A stretch of 26,045 bases of DNA from a virus: positions 1 to 26,045 of the IMG/VR virus record IMGVR_UViG_3300031774_000130; one strand, written 5' to 3'. A program made the position numbers and the translations under genes. This document shows positions 12,072-25,391 of this stretch, piece after piece. Position 1 is the stretch's first letter. The number at the start of each line of letters is the position of its first letter. The notes under the pieces are model-generated. The model searched no databases. It was not told the DNA's origin and saw only the letters and a program-made list of their open reading frames with translations.

Positions 12072-14657
12072 ATGGCTACTAACACTGCTGCATCTTTTAC
12101 TAGTCACACTGGCAATGGTGGTGCTGGTCCCTTCTCTATCTCTTTCAGTTACCTTTCTGAAGATGAGATAGATGTAACTGTTGATGGTGTCTTAAAAACT
12201 AAAACTACCCACTACACCTTTCCATCAGCTACTACCATTTCCTTTACTTCAGGGAATCATCCAGCAAACAGTGCTGCAATTAAGTTCCAAAGAGATACAA
12301 ATATAAGTGCTAAAAAAGTAGATTTCGTAGATGGAGCAATCTTAACTGAATCTGATCTTGATACAAATACTGAGCATTTATTATTTGGTCTACAAGAAGT
12401 TCTTAATCATGTAGATACAAAAGTTTTTACTTCTAGTCAAATAGCTGCTTCTGCAATTACAGCAACTGAAGTGGCTGATGCTTCTATTACTACAGCAAAA
12501 TTACATGGAGATACTGTTGTAATTAATAGTGAACAAGCAGGTGCTACAGCAAATGACACTTCTTTCTTTACAACATTAGCTTCTGATAGTCGTTATTTTA
12601 GACAAGATAGTTCTGAAACTATTCTTAGTGGAGCTTCTTGGAGTTCAGGTAATACTCATATAGCAACTACAGCAGCTATTGATGCTCGTATTGTTGATTT
12701 AGTTGATGATGTAGGTGGTTTTGTTCCAATAGCAAATGAAACATCTTTTCCTGATGCAAACCCTGATGTTAACAATGGTGCTGGTACTTTAATTAGTATA
12801 AAAGCTCTTGCTTCTAACCTTACTTCAAATGGTAGTGGAGTAGCAACAATATCCAATGGTAATGCATCTAATAATGCAACTATTACTATTAATGGTTTAG
12901 CAAATAGTACAACTTATGCAGCTGGTTTTGGAATGATTGTAGAGACAACATCTACACTTCATACTTATACATTTCATAGACAAACACCAAAAGCAACAGA
13001 AGTAACAACAGTTGCTGGAATATCAGGAAATATAACTACAGTTGCAGGTGCAGTAACGAATATTAATACAGTTGCAACAAACATAGCAGCAGTTAATTCT
13101 TTTGCTAATACATACAGTATTGCTAGTACAAATCCCACATCAGGACTGAATACTGGTGATCTTTACTTTAATACTTCAAGCAATGAATTAAGAGTATATA
13201 ATGGTAGTTCTTGGCAAGCAGGTGTAACAGCTACAGGTGATTTAGCCAGCTCGTCAGGAGCTACATTTACAGGCGATGTAACTCTTAATGCTCAAAAAGA
13301 TTTACGTTTTGCTGATGCTGATAGCTCGCATTATGTAGCTCTTCAATCACCTGGCACGATTGCTAGTAGCTTTACTCTTACTCTTCCTGCTACTGATGCT
13401 GCTGTAGATGGATATGTCTTAGCAAGTAATGGATCAGGTGTTTTGTCTTGGGTCGATCCAGGTTCTAGTTCAAGTCCTACTTTTACAGGAGATGCAACGC
13501 TTACAAATGATGGAGCTTTAGTTGGGTTTTCAAGTTTAAATGCAACTTATACAGGCAATGTCAAAACGTTTACAGTTACTGTTGCAACTAAGACTGCTGC
13601 TCATAGATATAACGGGACTGGATCAAGTTCTGGATACAAAATTGATGGTAAAGAATCTCCTTTTTTAACTCTTACTCCAGGTCGTACATATAAATTTGAC
13701 CAAGCAGATAATACTAACTCAGGTCATCCACTTGTTTTTTACCTAGATGCAAATAAAACTACTGGTTACACAACAGGCGTTACTCTTAGTGGTACTCCTG
13801 GTTCAGCTGGAGCTTATACACAAATAGTTGTTTCAGATACGACTCCACAAATATTGCATTATCAATGCTCATCTCATGCGTCGATGGGTAATAGCGTTCA
13901 AACAAATAGCAATATTATTAATATATTAGATGAAGATAATTTTGCTTCTAACAGTGACACCTCACCCCCTAGTCAGCAATCAGTTAAAGCTTATGTAGAT
14001 ACTGCTGATGCTTTAAAAGCTAATCTTGCTAGTCCAGCTTTAACAGGTACAGCAACAGGAGTTAATCTCACACTGTCAGGAAATTTGATTGTAAATGGGA
14101 CCACGACTACTGTAGCGAGCACAAATACGACTATATCGGACAATTTATTAGAATTAAATAGTGGAGCGACTAGTAATGCTAATGATTCTGGAATAATTAT
14201 TGAACGTGGTTCTACTGGCGATAATGCAATATTTGCATGGGATGAAAGCGCAGATAAGTTTATAGTTGGAACAACAACAGGAACAGCAGATGCAACAGGT
14301 GATATAACCATTGCAGCAGCTACTCTAGTTACTTCAACAATAGAAGATTCAAAAGGTGATGTAAGATCTATTCCTCAAAATACTCAAGGTTCTGCTTATG
14401 AGTTATTAGCTTCTGATGCTGGAAAACATATCCTTGCTAGTGGAAATATAACATGGGTAGATAGCCGACATGTTGCTGGTGATGCAATAACAATTGTCAA
14501 TAATACGGCTGGAAATATAACAATTATAAAAGGAACAACGATGTATAACACAGCAGATGGCAATAATGCGAACCGTATTTTAGCAACAAGAGGAATGGCT
14601 ACTATCTTATGGGCTTCAGGAACAGTTGCCTATATCTCAGGATCAGGTCTTAGCTGA
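12072..14657 (+). CDS. Tail fibre protein with T7 gp17-type N-terminus and cupredoxin-like insert
   Basis: The 861-residue product opens with the T7 tail fibre N-terminal domain (about residues 1-150): GPFSISFSYLSEDEIDVTVDG, THYTFPSATTISF, IKFQRDT and LLFGLQEVLN. This domain attaches the fibre to the tail. The rest is Thr/Ser/Asn-rich beta repeats typical of trimeric fibres. Residues about 496-615 form a distinct domain with a His552 in SGHPLVFYL and a Cys599-x2-His602-x2-Met605 loop in HYQCSSHASMG, the ligand order of type 1 copper proteins such as amicyanin. The C-terminus (DVRSIPQN, ELLASDAGKHIL, AGDAITIVNN) resembles the end domain of many marine phage fibres. T7 gp17 is 553 residues. ATG follows the gp16 stop by two bases. 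Confidence 0.88.
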   Translation: MATNTAASFTSHTGNGGAGPFSISFSYLSEDEIDVTVDGVLKTKTTHYTFPSATTISFTSGNHPANSAAIKFQRDTNISAKKVDFVDGAILTESDLDTNTEHLLFGLQEVLNHVDTKVFTSSQIAASAITATEVADASITTAKLHGDTVVINSEQAGATANDTSFFTTLASDSRYFRQDSSETILSGASWSSGNTHIATTAAIDARIVDLVDDVGGFVPIANETSFPDANPDVNNGAGTLISIKALASNLTSNGSGVATISNGNASNNATITINGLANSTTYAAGFGMIVETTSTLHTYTFHRQTPKATEVTTVAGISGNITTVAGAVTNINTVATNIAAVNSFANTYSIASTNPTSGLNTGDLYFNTSSNELRVYNGSSWQAGVTATGDLASSSGATFTGDVTLNAQKDLRFADADSSHYVALQSPGTIASSFTLTLPATDAAVDGYVLASNGSGVLSWVDPGSSSSPTFTGDATLTNDGALVGFSSLNATYTGNVKTFTVTVATKTAAHRYNGTGSSSGYKIDGKESPFLTLTPGRTYKFDQADNTNSGHPLVFYLDANKTTGYTTGVTLSGTPGSAGAYTQIVVSDTTPQILHYQCSSHASMGNSVQTNSNIINILDEDNFASNSDTSPPSQQSVKAYVDTADALKANLASPALTGTATGVNLTLSGNLIVNGTTTTVASTNTTISDNLLELNSGATSNANDSGIIIERGSTGDNAIFAWDESADKFIVGTTTGTADATGDITIAAATLVTSTIEDSKGDVRSIPQNTQGSAYELLASDAGKHILASGNITWVDSRHVAGDAITIVNNTAGNITIIKGTTMYNTADGNNANRILATRGMATILWASGTVAYISGSGLS

Positions 14658-14658
14658 T

Positions 14659-15882
14659 ATGACACCAATTCAACAAATGTTTTTAGGCGGGGGTTCTATT
14701 CCAACCGCAGAAGCTCCCACCAATTTAAGCCTATCTTTAGCCACAGCAACAACGCTTACAGCAACGTACTCCAATACAACAACATTAGGAGCACCTCTTA
14801 CTTTTGGAGTTAATTATTCAACAACAAATAACGCTACAACAATAAAAAATTCAGGAACTAGTGTTACAGGTAATTCAACAACTACAACTACAGGAACTTT
14901 AACGGCAAGCACTACCTACTACTTTTTAGCATGGGCTAATAGTGGTACAGAAAAAATATACTCATCTAGTATTGTTTCTATTTCAACTATTGCTGCTGGC
15001 ACGTTTCTTGCTGCTGGAAGTACAACAAATGCGTCGGGTACATCTTGGGTTGAATATCTTGCTCCTACAGATAAGTTAATTTCTTTCTATGCCGTAGGTG
15101 GGTCTGGTGGGTCTGGTGGAGCTTGGAATCAAACAAACTCTAATGGTGGAGATAGTGGAGATGCTGCGGCTAGTTACACTTTCGCGTCAGGAACACACGG
15201 TTCAAATATTTATTTACGTGCATGTGTAGGAGGAGCAGGGACATATCTTGATGATGGATCAGCGGCTTATGCCTGTCCCTCTCGTGGTGGTGGGGCAAGT
15301 GCTTGGCAATATAAAGACACTTCAAACAATTGGCAGGATGTAATAGTCGGAGGTGCTGGAGGTGGTGGCTCTTCAGCTTGGAATAATGTTCCTACTGATG
15401 CAGGTGACGGAGGTCATGTTAATTCAGGTACCACAAGTGACACTAATAATTTGGTCTACGCTGCAGGAGGAGATGGAGGGAACGGCAGCGAAGGAGGCGG
15501 TGATAATAATGCTGGTGTAAATGCTAGTCATAGCAATAGAAATGCTTATGAAGGTGGTGGTGGATACGGTGGTAGTTCTACCGGAAGCTCAAGCTATAAA
15601 ACTCAAACTACTGGAGGTGCCGGCAACTCCGCTAGAGGAACAGGAGGCAATATAGAACCTGAATATTACGGAAATGGCGGAGGTGGTGGCGGAGGCTACT
15701 TCGGAGGAGCTGGTGGTGCTTACCCAAACGGTGGCTCTGGTGGTTCAAGCATGAAGATGGCAGGCGCAGCACCTATAGCTCAAGTATTAACTGTTCCAAC
15801 TGGTCATACTAATACTGGGAGTCATGGTACACATGGAAGCAGTGGAACAGTGGGAGCAGCAAGAGTTGTAGTAGCGTCTTAA
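14659..15882 (+). CDS. Glycine-rich tail fibre tip / adhesin-like protein
   Basis: The preferred ATG at 14659 lies two bases after the fibre stop and gives 407 residues; an in-frame TTG at 14626 would overlap the fibre gene. Residues about 10-112 look like a fibronectin III-type beta domain (APTNLSLSLATATTLTATYS). From residue about 147 the protein is dominated by glycine runs (VGGSGGSGGAW, GGAGGGGSSAW, YGNGGGGGGGYFGGAGGAY) mixed with Ser, Asn and aromatic residues. In the adhesin gp38 of Salmonella phage S16 such runs fold into packed polyglycine II helices at the fibre tip. Position straight after the fibre gene suggests a receptor-binding tip or fibre-associated protein. Structure and role are inferred from composition and place. 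Confidence 0.72.
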   Translation: MTPIQQMFLGGGSIPTAEAPTNLSLSLATATTLTATYSNTTTLGAPLTFGVNYSTTNNATTIKNSGTSVTGNSTTTTTGTLTASTTYYFLAWANSGTEKIYSSSIVSISTIAAGTFLAAGSTTNASGTSWVEYLAPTDKLISFYAVGGSGGSGGAWNQTNSNGGDSGDAAASYTFASGTHGSNIYLRACVGGAGTYLDDGSAAYACPSRGGGASAWQYKDTSNNWQDVIVGGAGGGGSSAWNNVPTDAGDGGHVNSGTTSDTNNLVYAAGGDGGNGSEGGGDNNAGVNASHSNRNAYEGGGGYGGSSTGSSSYKTQTTGGAGNSARGTGGNIEPEYYGNGGGGGGGYFGGAGGAYPNGGSGGSSMKMAGAAPIAQVLTVPTGHTNTGSHGTHGSSGTVGAARVVVAS

Positions 15883-17576: not shown

Positions 17577-18345
17577 AATGTTTATGATCTGGCAATGTAT
17601 TAGGAGGATTTACAAGTCGTACATCTTCACAGACAACATAACTAGGACTATTTTTTGCATAAACAACGCCGAGCCGCATCTGCTCAGCACATACTTTTAA
17701 ACGCCCAAGAGCGTAATCTAATTTTTTGGCTTTGTAGGCTTGTTCTAAATATCTAACACGTGTATTCATAGCCGCCACGCACCTGCTAGTCATGCGGCGA
17801 TCTAGTGGTACTGCCACGGTTGCAGTTATACCGTAATTGAAGCTTAAGTTATTTTTGGCTTGTCCAGTTCTAATTGGTTTGGTGTATAAAACTCCACCAG
17901 GGTTTAATAAATTACCATCTGCATCTGTACTATCGTCATATACATTTTCAAGGTACGTTGGTTCAAACGGATCTTTCCAAGTATTGACTTTTGAAATGAA
18001 AGGATTAATGGTTAAAGTTGTGCCACTGCAACGGATTCCATCACCTACTTCTTGAAACATAAAGCTTCCCGACTGCACCTGGATACCTTGATTGATTACG
18101 GAACCTTGGGATGTTGCAGATGGAGAGGCTATAGTCGTAGCGTTTGCAAATACTGGTTGACTAAATGTTATTGAGTAAAGACAGATACCGATTCCACAAT
18201 AGATTCTGTTGTTGTGGTTCGGTTGATTGTAGTTACGTTTGAAAGGCCAGGATTTGATAGGGTTTCTGTGAATGAGAAAGCGTTGCCAGCAGTTTTTATT
18301 CCCCAGTCGGGTTTGTTTGCTGGTGTTACATCTACTGATGTCCAT
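17503..18345 (-). CDS. Secreted-type cyanophage module protein; true start unresolved
   Basis: The frame is open from an ATG at 18345, but its first 46 residues overlap the conserved end of the upstream gene in another frame and look unlike a protein. A signal-peptide-like segment starts at about 18207 (RIYCGIGICLYSITF then SQPVFA, cleavage before NATT), yet no ATG, GTG or TTG lies near it in this frame. The mature part (about 213 residues) has ANATTIASPSATSQGSVINQ, a Cys in GIRCSGTTL, a FEPTY acidic region and a DRRMTSRCVAAMNTRVRYLEQ helix. Similar proteins are, from memory, common in marine cyanophages, with no known role. Options are an unusual start codon, a -1 shift from the upstream gene, a long leader, or a base error. 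The 3' end overlaps the convergent gene by 74 bases. Confidence 0.7.
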   Translation of the reverse strand: MDISRCNTSKQTRLGNKNCWQRFLIHRNPIKSWPFKRNYNQPNHNNRIYCGIGICLYSITFSQPVFANATTIASPSATSQGSVINQGIQVQSGSFMFQEVGDGIRCSGTTLTINPFISKVNTWKDPFEPTYLENVYDDSTDADGNLLNPGGVLYTKPIRTGQAKNNLSFNYGITATVAVPLDRRMTSRCVAAMNTRVRYLEQAYKAKKLDYALGRLKVCAEQMRLGVVYAKNSPSYVVCEDVRLVNPPNTLPDHKHSISETTSVPFSFQKGTLQEASSPE

Positions 18346-18614
18346 GTAAAGGTGATGTTGTCAACGGTTTGAGGTGCATTTAATACAGCTTTAGGTGAAA
18401 TAGCGTTTGTATTTAGTGGTTCGATGTTATGACCAGAGACAACGTATTCATACCCTGATCGGTAATCTACTGATGTAATAGTTTCGGCTACTACAGTTTT
18501 AGTTTCCTGTCTGCTGTTTAAAGTACCAGTTGAGAATGTGGGGACGACGGGAACAGCAGAAACGCTAGTCCCTGTAAAGGATATAAGCAGTAATAACTTA
18601 CATATTTTACTCAT
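18168..18614 (-). CDS. Secreted envelope-module protein with signal peptide
   Basis: The 148-residue product has a clear signal peptide: MSKICK, hydrophobic LLLLISFTG, and a cleavage site after TSVSA. The mature part is Thr/Ser/Val-rich and likely all beta. Near residue 112 it has TAGNAFSFTET, almost the same as TAGSAFSFSES in the neighbouring 165-residue protein, so the two share a motif and may be diverged copies. It is polar and has no Cys in the mature part. The gene starts six bases after the stop of its upstream neighbour (reading leftward), so it belongs to the - strand operon. Its last 178 bases are also open in the frame of the next gene. Function is unknown; periplasmic or outer-membrane placement is inferred from the signal peptide. 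Confidence 0.78.
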   Translation of the reverse strand: MSKICKLLLLISFTGTSVSAVPVVPTFSTGTLNSRQETKTVVAETITSVDYRSGYEYVVSGHNIEPLNTNAISPKAVLNAPQTVDNITFTWTSVDVTPANKPDWGIKTAGNAFSFTETLSNPGLSNVTTINRTTTTESIVESVSVFTQ

Positions 18615-18620
18615 TAAGTA

Positions 18621-19118
18621 TCATTTAACGGTAATTTCTGATGAATACTGAGCGGTCCCAGTTGTACCCGCCCCTCCAGCAACGGTTGTTGCAATTCCAG
18701 CAGAAGTAACCGTACCAGCAAGGTTTCCAGCAACTCCGCCTGAAGTAACTACGGTATTTCCGAAGGCTGGCATGTCAGCAACAACTCCAGCAGAAACATC
18801 CACTCCTGAACCTATCGCTGGAATAGCGTCACCTTGAAGCCAGCTCTCAGAAAACGAAAATGCAGATCCAGCCGTATTAACTTCATAAACACCAACATCA
18901 AGTGTTGCTGCTGCCGAAGCCGAACCTGCTGTTAATTTTCCAAAGTGTTCTCCAGTCGTAACTTTCATGTTTGAGCCTGACACCGCATAGGTGCTTGGGA
19001 CTCGTATCGCCTGCACTGCTGCTCCATCAACTTTCAAGCTTGTTGAAGCTGTGTGTTTGATTGCTATGTCAGCTTGAGCTGGAGCCGCCAATAAAAGCAG
19101 GAAGAGGAAGTGTTTCAT
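18621..19118 (-). CDS. Secreted Ala/Gly/Thr-rich envelope-module protein
   Basis: The 165-residue product begins with a textbook signal peptide (MKHFLFLLLLAAPAQA, cut before DIAIKH). The mature protein is rich in Ala, Gly, Thr, Ser and Val with alternating beta pattern, contains VNTAGSAFSFSESW, and ends in a repetitive Gly/Ala/Thr stretch and SSEITVK. No cysteine is present. From memory, proteins with the same start, the same SAFSFSES motif and the same end are very widespread in marine cyanophages. Base composition is richer in G+C than the neighbours, which follows from Ala and Gly codons. The gene begins two bases after the stop of the 186-residue gene. The role is unknown; export to the periplasm or surface is inferred. 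Confidence 0.8.
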   Translation of the reverse strand: MKHFLFLLLLAAPAQADIAIKHTASTSLKVDGAAVQAIRVPSTYAVSGSNMKVTTGEHFGKLTAGSASAAATLDVGVYEVNTAGSAFSFSESWLQGDAIPAIGSGVDVSAGVVADMPAFGNTVVTSGGVAGNLAGTVTSAGIATTVAGGAGTTGTAQYSSEITVK

Positions 19119-25037: not shown

Positions 25038-25391
25038 ATGCTTAAGTGCCCTTCTTGTGGCTCTGTAAGTTTTGTATCCACTGGAGCAGGTCAGGAAAAA
25101 ATTCCTGATGCTCCTTCAGTGGAAACAAGAAATACAAACCAGACACCTTATATCCGTAGGAGGAGGAGGTGTTCTAAATGCAAGCACTTGTTTTCTACTA
25201 GGGAATATGAGGTAGAAGAACTTCAAGCAATCATGCTTGGAGTAAAGAAAGAATCAGGAAATCTAGAAGGAAGTGAAAAACACTTAACTTCTATTGCTGC
25301 TGAGGTATCAGATTTACTAGAGGAGCTCCTTTCATGGGCTGGTCAAGTAAATAAACATAAGAAACAACTCAAAAAGAGGAAAGACTTATGA
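25038..25391 (+). CDS. NrdR-like zinc-ribbon protein without ATP-cone
   Basis: The 117-residue product has Cys4-x2-Cys7 (LKCPSCGS) and Cys45-x2-Cys48 in YIRRRRRCSKCKHLFSTREYE, nearly the zinc-ribbon signature of the bacterial repressor NrdR (IRRRR.C..C..RF.T.E), which binds boxes upstream of ribonucleotide reductase genes. The loop between Cys pairs is longer (37 residues between Cys7 and Cys45, against about 24 in NrdR). The C-terminal half is a charged helix (VSDLLEELLSWAGQVNKHKKQLKKRKDL) and lacks the ATP-cone that senses dATP in NrdR. It may therefore bind DNA constitutively or act as a new regulator. The ATG lies two bases after the previous stop, and the stop overlaps the next ATG (ATGA). 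Confidence 0.78.
   Translation: MLKCPSCGSVSFVSTGAGQEKIPDAPSVETRNTNQTPYIRRRRRCSKCKHLFSTREYEVEELQAIMLGVKKESGNLEGSEKHLTSIAAEVSDLLEELLSWAGQVNKHKKQLKKRKDL

Follow-up and report, generated by a model that had tools for sequence, protein, structure and literature searches.

A cupredoxin domain with a conserved type 1 copper ligand set in a T7-type tail fibre, and its spread among marine phages

In the tail fibre of a virus known from an IMG/VR record, one histidine is followed by a cysteine, a second histidine and a methionine in a pattern that recalls the copper sites of plastocyanin and amicyanin, and we asked whether this stretch is a genuine cupredoxin domain and, if so, what it might do on a virion. 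The sequence that we analysed, referred to below as the window, is the whole 26,045-base virus record IMGVR_UViG_3300031774_000130. The fibre is an open reading frame of 861 amino acids on the plus strand (positions 12,072 to 14,657), and we call it a T7-type tail fibre because its residues 4-137 match Phage_T7_tail (PF03906) at 59.8 bits against a cut-off of 25.2. The gene order of the window is T7-like as well, with a tail protein, an internal virion protein, large proteins, the fibre and, later, a terminase. The nearest relative of this terminase in the phage collection belongs to Prochlorococcus phage P-SCSP2 (75.6% identical), and a 79% identical relative of the fibre domain lies on a 41,291-base contig of the Prochlorococcus genome assembly AG-418-M08. 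From these two matches we infer that the host of the window phage is likely to be Prochlorococcus.

The original prediction had located His552, Cys599, His602 and Met605 within fibre residues 496-615, with about 47 residues between the first His and the Cys; translation confirms the residue numbers, and the spacing is indeed 47. On the evidence of conservation, profiles and a structural model, we place the cupredoxin-like domain, with its full type 1 copper ligand set, at residues 496-619 (13,557 to 13,930, plus strand), and the translation of that interval contains both GHPLVF and HYQCSSHASMG. All four ligand codons lie on the plus strand. Conservation and profile alignments identify the first ligand as His552 of GHPLVF (13,725 to 13,727), which pairs with the PHN of plastocyanin, the thiolate ligand as Cys599 (13,866 to 13,868) and the second His ligand as His602 (13,875 to 13,877); conservation counts identify Met605 (13,884 to 13,886) as the axial ligand that completes a C-x2-H-x2-M loop. 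Fibre residues 481-617 (13,512 to 13,922, plus strand) constitute a mobile module to which blast similarity to most other carriers is confined, the matching stretch of the window fibre being 481-617 for phage Bellamy and 481-613 for P-SSM2.

Other features of the window were recorded alongside. A glycine-rich open reading frame of 418 amino acids directly 3' of the fibre (14,626 to 15,882) has no Pfam or PHROG match and is possibly a second adhesin. Two adjoining small proteins with signal-like starts, one of them a DUF6322 protein, are encoded on the minus strand (18,168 to 18,614 and 18,621 to 19,118) and share similar stretches (KTAGNAFSF and NTAGSAFSF). A 117-amino-acid protein (25,038 to 25,391) carries an NrdR-type zinc ribbon (PF22811, 32.3 bits against 27.2), and a PADLOC scan returned no match.

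Conservation of the four ligands

Free variation of the four residues among homologues would have refuted the proposal of a copper site, and the relatives contradict such variation. When the window domain was aligned with 16 fibre, connector and structural-protein relatives (17 sequences, the relatives being 30-83% identical to the window), the only invariant columns were Tyr540, Phe542, His552, Tyr597, Cys599, His602 and Met605. A larger set of 143 domains sharing less than 90% identity, from which five fragment rows had been removed beforehand, keeps Phe542 in 143 cases, His552, Cys599 and His602 in 142 each, and Met605 in 141; the four ligands are among the five best-kept columns. They are retained even though relatives differ in His-Cys spacing (41 to 56 residues) and in His-Met gap (2 to 3). 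The window domain meets the definition of a type 1 copper site that we applied, namely two His, a Cys and an axial Met at equivalent, conserved positions.

A referee may object that peptides containing the motif would retrieve only sequences containing the motif. This retrieval bias was considered and ruled out: when only the rows from four scans containing a ligand-free search peptide were counted, 166 had all four ligands, one had Leu for Met and three were truncated at contig ends. Because these rows keep the ligands too, the choice of motif-containing peptides is not the cause of the conservation.

We then made a wider count, examining the loci of 322 unique matches at E values up to 0.01. 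The His/Cys/His/Met set was complete in 300, and one further match had Leu for Met. Nine matches were cut at locus ends and two rows were the first half of one split domain of phage S-SSM4, leaving 311 assessable rows, of which the 300 are complete. The other ten are degenerate and retain no more than one ligand each (the second His only in three, the first His in one, the Cys in one from S-PM2, and none in five); judged by eye they fall into about five protein lineages, and so represent about five events rather than ten. No copy holds two of the four ligands, and only the Leu case holds three. Since intermediates are otherwise absent, the site appears to be kept or lost as a unit. This all-or-none pattern is an observed one, and it is what a joint metal site predicts, although the metal itself is inferred. 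The persistence of ligand-less copies, for its part, disfavours a purely structural need for metal.

Cys599 is the sole cysteine of the 861-residue fibre, so that a disulfide within one chain is impossible, and exactly one Cys is present in 270 of 285 unique domains.

Two observations on unusual copies may be added. In a baseplate wedge subunit of S-SSM4 (L089:4238-7702), the cupredoxin domain is split by an insertion that lies after the first His and ahead of the Cys loop; the second half holds the C, H and M, and all four ligands are still present. Six loci (L370, L397, L400, L368, L379 and L398) hold cyanophage cupredoxin-like domains nearly devoid of the ligands, and these form a natural metal-free control set.

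Sequence homology and predicted fold

A search of the PDB with the single window sequence found nothing relevant, and the matches came from profiles only. The profile built from the 17 sequences gave five sub-threshold PDB matches (all at E of 0.12 or more), of which three are to copper proteins. With a profile built from 125 relatives, the search returned copper nitrite reductase (E 4.6e-5), plastocyanin 1b3i (8.3e-4), pseudoazurin (1.1e-3) and several further plastocyanins. Copper proteins made up most of the 60 rows shown of 68 in that search; no phage chain was among those 60, and hence no solved virion structure of this domain. In the plastocyanin alignments His falls on His, and the C-x2-H loop and the Met are in register. 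The ligands are again in register in a profile-profile comparison by hhalign with seven cyanobacterial plastocyanins (probability 92.9, P 3.8e-7). The sequence criterion that we set for the cupredoxin superfamily, profile similarity across the ligand regions, is satisfied.

Evidence from Pfam is weaker. The window domain alone gave no row for PF00127 (Copper-bind) at E up to 1 and did not reach its cut-off of 21.2 bits. Its best single Pfam match is the At5g54830-like domain (PF25489), a family named after a plant protein, at 19 bits over residues 6-115 of the segment; this is below the cut-off of 27, and membership is not supported. PF00127 is nevertheless the most frequent Pfam family among the 125 relatives, 29 of which match it at E up to 0.1 (best 3.5e-5), and 20 also match the Ig-like family PF23616, so that the Pfam evidence is not one-sided.

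The phage profile was also run against 194 cyanobacterial genomes and found matches in six: the Prochlorococcus assembly introduced above, a genome in which the match is a large protein, and four genomes whose matches are true plastocyanins, found at E values of 1e-4 to 1e-6. One of the two matches in the Prochlorococcus assembly is the phage contig already described. The other (assembly G001, L335:1441-1845) is a protein of 134 residues with a signal-like start and a cupredoxin domain with C-x2-H-x4-M; it is not petE. It matches the phage profile at E 1.8e-15 and PF00127 at 33.8 bits against the cut-off of 21.2, and these scores show that it bridges the phage family and the plastocyanin/azurin family (Pfam Copper-bind). 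Weaker PF00127 matches of this kind occur in 5 of 21 genomes of the same genus. It is possible that this protein is the host counterpart, or the source, of the phage module. Recent fusion of a host plastocyanin to the fibre was considered separately and is unlikely, as the phage domains are a divergent family of their own; Prochlorococcus petE itself matches the phage profile merely at E of about 0.002-0.004.

Comparison of a predicted fold with known cupredoxins had been suggested as a check on the original prediction, and the models match mainly copper proteins of that fold. An AlphaFold model of fibre residues 490-624 (pLDDT 86.5, pTM 0.81) has rusticyanins as its best Foldseek rows in the PDB (E 2.1e-4); of the 50 rows shown, 49 belong to copper proteins with a cupredoxin fold. 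By VIA it aligns with Hyphomicrobium nitrite reductase over 103 residues (Z 9.2, rmsd 3.9), a Z that is moderate alone, given that models without a clear match typically score 7-8. The model of a second family member, from the P-HM1 group, is more confident (pLDDT 95.9); VIA gives Z 11.4 and rmsd 2.8 over 100 aligned residues, and each of the 50 Foldseek rows shown is a copper protein of the cupredoxin fold; plastocyanins, rusticyanin and nitrous oxide reductase are among them. These lists show the best rows only and do not exclude families absent from them. By fold, both models belong to the cupredoxin superfamily. Placed on the strands of the window model, the first His comes ahead of strand 65-68, strand 105-110 terminates in the Cys, and strand 117-122 follows the loop that contains the His and Met; blue copper proteins have this arrangement of strands and ligands. 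A fold that set the ligands apart in space would have counted against a copper site, and neither the fold nor the register bears this out (ligand distances were not measured). We also observed that three small giant-virus proteins in BFVD described as beta-sandwich proteins, A0A481Z6J5, A0A481Z7Q7 and A0A481YVH3 (Pithovirus LCPAC302/304 and Marseillevirus LCMAC201), resemble the model.

The claim that the domain is cupredoxin-like and has the ligands of a type 1 copper site is therefore supported by ligand conservation, by the PDB profile match, by the profile-profile match to plastocyanin and by the fold. Computation shows the segment to be a genuine cupredoxin domain that shares ancestry with plastocyanin, with pseudoazurin and with the cupredoxin domains of nitrite reductase.

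It is nonetheless distinct from each of its known relatives. With plastocyanin (PF00127, plastocyanin/azurin family) it shares a Greek-key beta sandwich, a His on a strand and a C-x2-H...M loop before the last strand, and the profile match is significant across most of the phage domain; plastocyanin has a His-Met gap of 4 rather than 2, however, and the phage domain lies inside a tail fibre and is not a free lumenal or secreted electron carrier, so that it cannot be called a plastocyanin proper. The original prediction likened the loop to that of amicyanin, and the C-x2-H-x2-M loop is confirmed in the phage domain. The ligand loop of amicyanin is C-x2-H-x2-M, and the profile matches to amicyanin are sub-threshold (E 0.15-1). 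Unlike amicyanin, the phage domain belongs to a structural protein without a methylamine dehydrogenase context, and the requirement for a periplasmic partner is not met. The folds nearest to the two models, the N-terminal cupredoxin domain of the Hyphomicrobium copper nitrite reductase and rusticyanin, come in contrast from cellular electron-transfer proteins, and their identity to the models is low (12-29% in the listed rows). Cyanophage genomes also carry the auxiliary gene petE, a plastocyanin (PMC3037559, PMC2984593), but this is a separate small gene thought to serve host photosynthesis.

Spread among marine phages and their tail proteins

Similar segments in many marine phage fibres had been mentioned in the original prediction, and searches of phage records bear this out. 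Among 50,697 phage records the window domain found 148 at E up to 0.01, of which 137 are named Synechococcus, Prochlorococcus or Cyanophage and the rest are methylophilales, Pelagibacter, marine, uncultured or unassigned phages. With the P-GSP1 copy as query, 349 records matched at E values no higher than 0.001; 337 are cyanophages, 338 have at least 80% cover, and most of the rows shown were gp9-type "baseplate wedge tail fiber connector" proteins. As a yardstick, querying with a T4-type terminase at E 1e-50 finds 461 records bearing the three cyanophage names; the records of the two sets were not paired one to one.

Of a panel of 11 phages, three (P-HM2, Syn9 and P-SSM4) show five domain matches each and S-PM2 has one weak, degenerate match; the domain is absent from the other seven (P-SSP7, Syn5, P60, HTVC010P, HTVC008M, T4 and T7). 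The domain is therefore dispensable for infecting Prochlorococcus, Synechococcus or SAR11. Fourteen other records, picked as carriers, have one to six matches each, with 6 in P-HM1 and 5 in P-SSM2.

The proteins that carry the domain include the fibre, the gp9-type connector, other baseplate wedge proteins and giant structural proteins, and 290 of the 322 domain-bearing proteins share with the window fibre the domain stretch only. Moreover, the proteins resembling the window fibre in P-GSP1 and P-SCSP2 lack the domain, which in these phages begins a separate downstream protein. Both the domain-only similarity and this relocation indicate that the domain moves between tail proteins, and the computation shows it to be a mobile module of marine, mostly cyanobacterial, phages. 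We infer that such mobility, with the metal site mostly kept, favours a function of the domain on the particle over a feature of one fibre design.

A related annotation deserves comment. Synechococcus phage S-SCSM2R encodes a 168-amino-acid "PetE" (L349:4815-5321). Among the relatives of this protein are gp9 connectors that bear the cupredoxin domain of tails, and the label is likely to be misleading. A DUF6322 gene lies two genes downstream of it, and the window also has a DUF6322 gene.

Possible roles of the inferred metal site

Homology, fold, the all-or-none retention of His/Cys/His/Met and the spread among unrelated tail proteins are computational results; the reading that we favour goes beyond them in inferring both copper binding and a role. 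In it, the segment is a copper-loaded cupredoxin serving as a host-contact module on the tail; our confidence in the reading as a whole, the mobile cupredoxin module included, is about 0.7. The site would take up one copper ion, probably after lysis, where the fibre meets copper outside the reducing cytoplasm. Fibres fold in the cytoplasm, where free copper is normally negligible, and so copper loading must come later, or the metal must be another one. We regard copper in the native virion as likely, an inference made without metal data. Each trimeric fibre would present three loaded domains at the surface of the tail, and these would help the virion to hold on to or recognise some host-surface component; the metal would lock an outward-facing loop, and contact could depend on copper or redox state. 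On the host side, Prochlorococcus itself encodes the related cupredoxin with a signal-like start. That host contact is the main role is inferred without receptor evidence, and on this part we lean slightly to the negative. It also counts against our reading that ligand-less copies keep the fold family, from which we infer that the fold can serve a virion without metal. The suggestions that the fibre binds copper, is stabilised by it or contacts a copper-related receptor, all present in the original prediction, are thus still only inferences, and there are no experimental data.

The main rival, which remains possible, is that the domain is only a structural copper lock, an Ig-like spacer or tail decoration stiffened by copper in dilute, salty, sunlit seawater and making no receptor contact. 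Its occurrence in very different virion proteins, in several copies per genome, suits a generic building block, as does its position outside the fibre, in a separate downstream protein, in P-SCSP2 and P-GSP1. However, the ligand-less copies imply that metal is unnecessary for keeping the module, and a pure spacer leaves unexplained an exact redox-type ligand set in so large a share of the assessable rows. One might instead suppose that the site binds zinc or no metal and that the four residues are kept for core packing. Cupredoxins can bind Zn in vitro, the cytoplasm is low in copper while the fibre folds, and the module survives in the ten degenerate copies; but a Cys-2His-Met set typifies type 1 copper and is unusual with zinc, residues kept for packing should be replaced step by step whereas the loss seen is all-or-none, and the sole single substitution, Met to Leu, is one tolerated in known type 1 sites. 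We consider this explanation unlikely. Chance resemblance, or a motif based on a disulfide, is all but excluded: short Cys/His motifs are common in isolation, but the single Cys of the fibre and of nearly all unique domains, together with the conservation, profile and fold evidence, rules both out.

Two further proposals give the copper a more active part, and we think both very unlikely. In a copper or redox gate, copper reduction at the lit host surface would switch the loop and adsorption, making attachment light-dependent. Adsorption of P-HM2 fails in the dark and P-SSP7 infects in the dark (PMC7112961), and the former has five domain matches and the latter none; the spread of the domain is also strongly biased to cyanophages. 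Against this, the comparison rests on two phages only, the domain also occurs in SAR11 and methylophilales phages, and S-PM2, whose adsorption is reportedly light-dependent (Jia 2010), has no intact copy, its one weak match lacking the ligand set. A bolder version holds that many marine cyanophage virions are blue-copper particles whose fibres and baseplate bear anything from several to dozens of redox-active type 1 centres, and that these centres form a redox- or copper-gated sensor of the photosynthesising host surface and are the cause of light-dependent adsorption; taken jointly, these claims are hardly probable. The other proposal is a copper "Ferrojan horse", in which the tail would offer bound metal to a host uptake receptor, or the phages would act as marine copper ligands. 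It has a precedent in iron-bearing phage tail fibres with HxH motifs (T4 gp37 and marine fibres) and the Ferrojan horse hypothesis built on them (PMC11705849), and the related Prochlorococcus cupredoxin with its signal-like start also speaks for it. Yet no receptor is known, these cyanobacteria are poisoned by copper more than they are limited by its supply, and the window fibre is without an HxH motif, no two His among all of its His positions being two apart.

Those iron-bearing fibres resemble the phage domain in placing a metal on a tail fibre, copper being inferred in our case, and differ in that they bind iron through HxH whereas the window fibre has an entire cupredoxin domain whose site includes a Cys thiolate. 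We found no description of a cupredoxin domain in a phage structural protein in the open-licence literature searched. Within that literature, cupredoxins, cyanophage petE and iron in phage fibres were already known, and the cupredoxin domain in a phage tail is new.

If copper is bound, tail proteins in many ocean cyanobacterial viruses would belong to a class of metalloproteins familiar chiefly from electron transfer in cells, and copper would be added to the debate on metals in virions. Several "hypothetical" structural and baseplate proteins of cyanophages could be given names, and the phage tail would carry a coloured, EPR-visible handle. Copper binding would also suggest testing whether attachment to the host depends on copper or on light.
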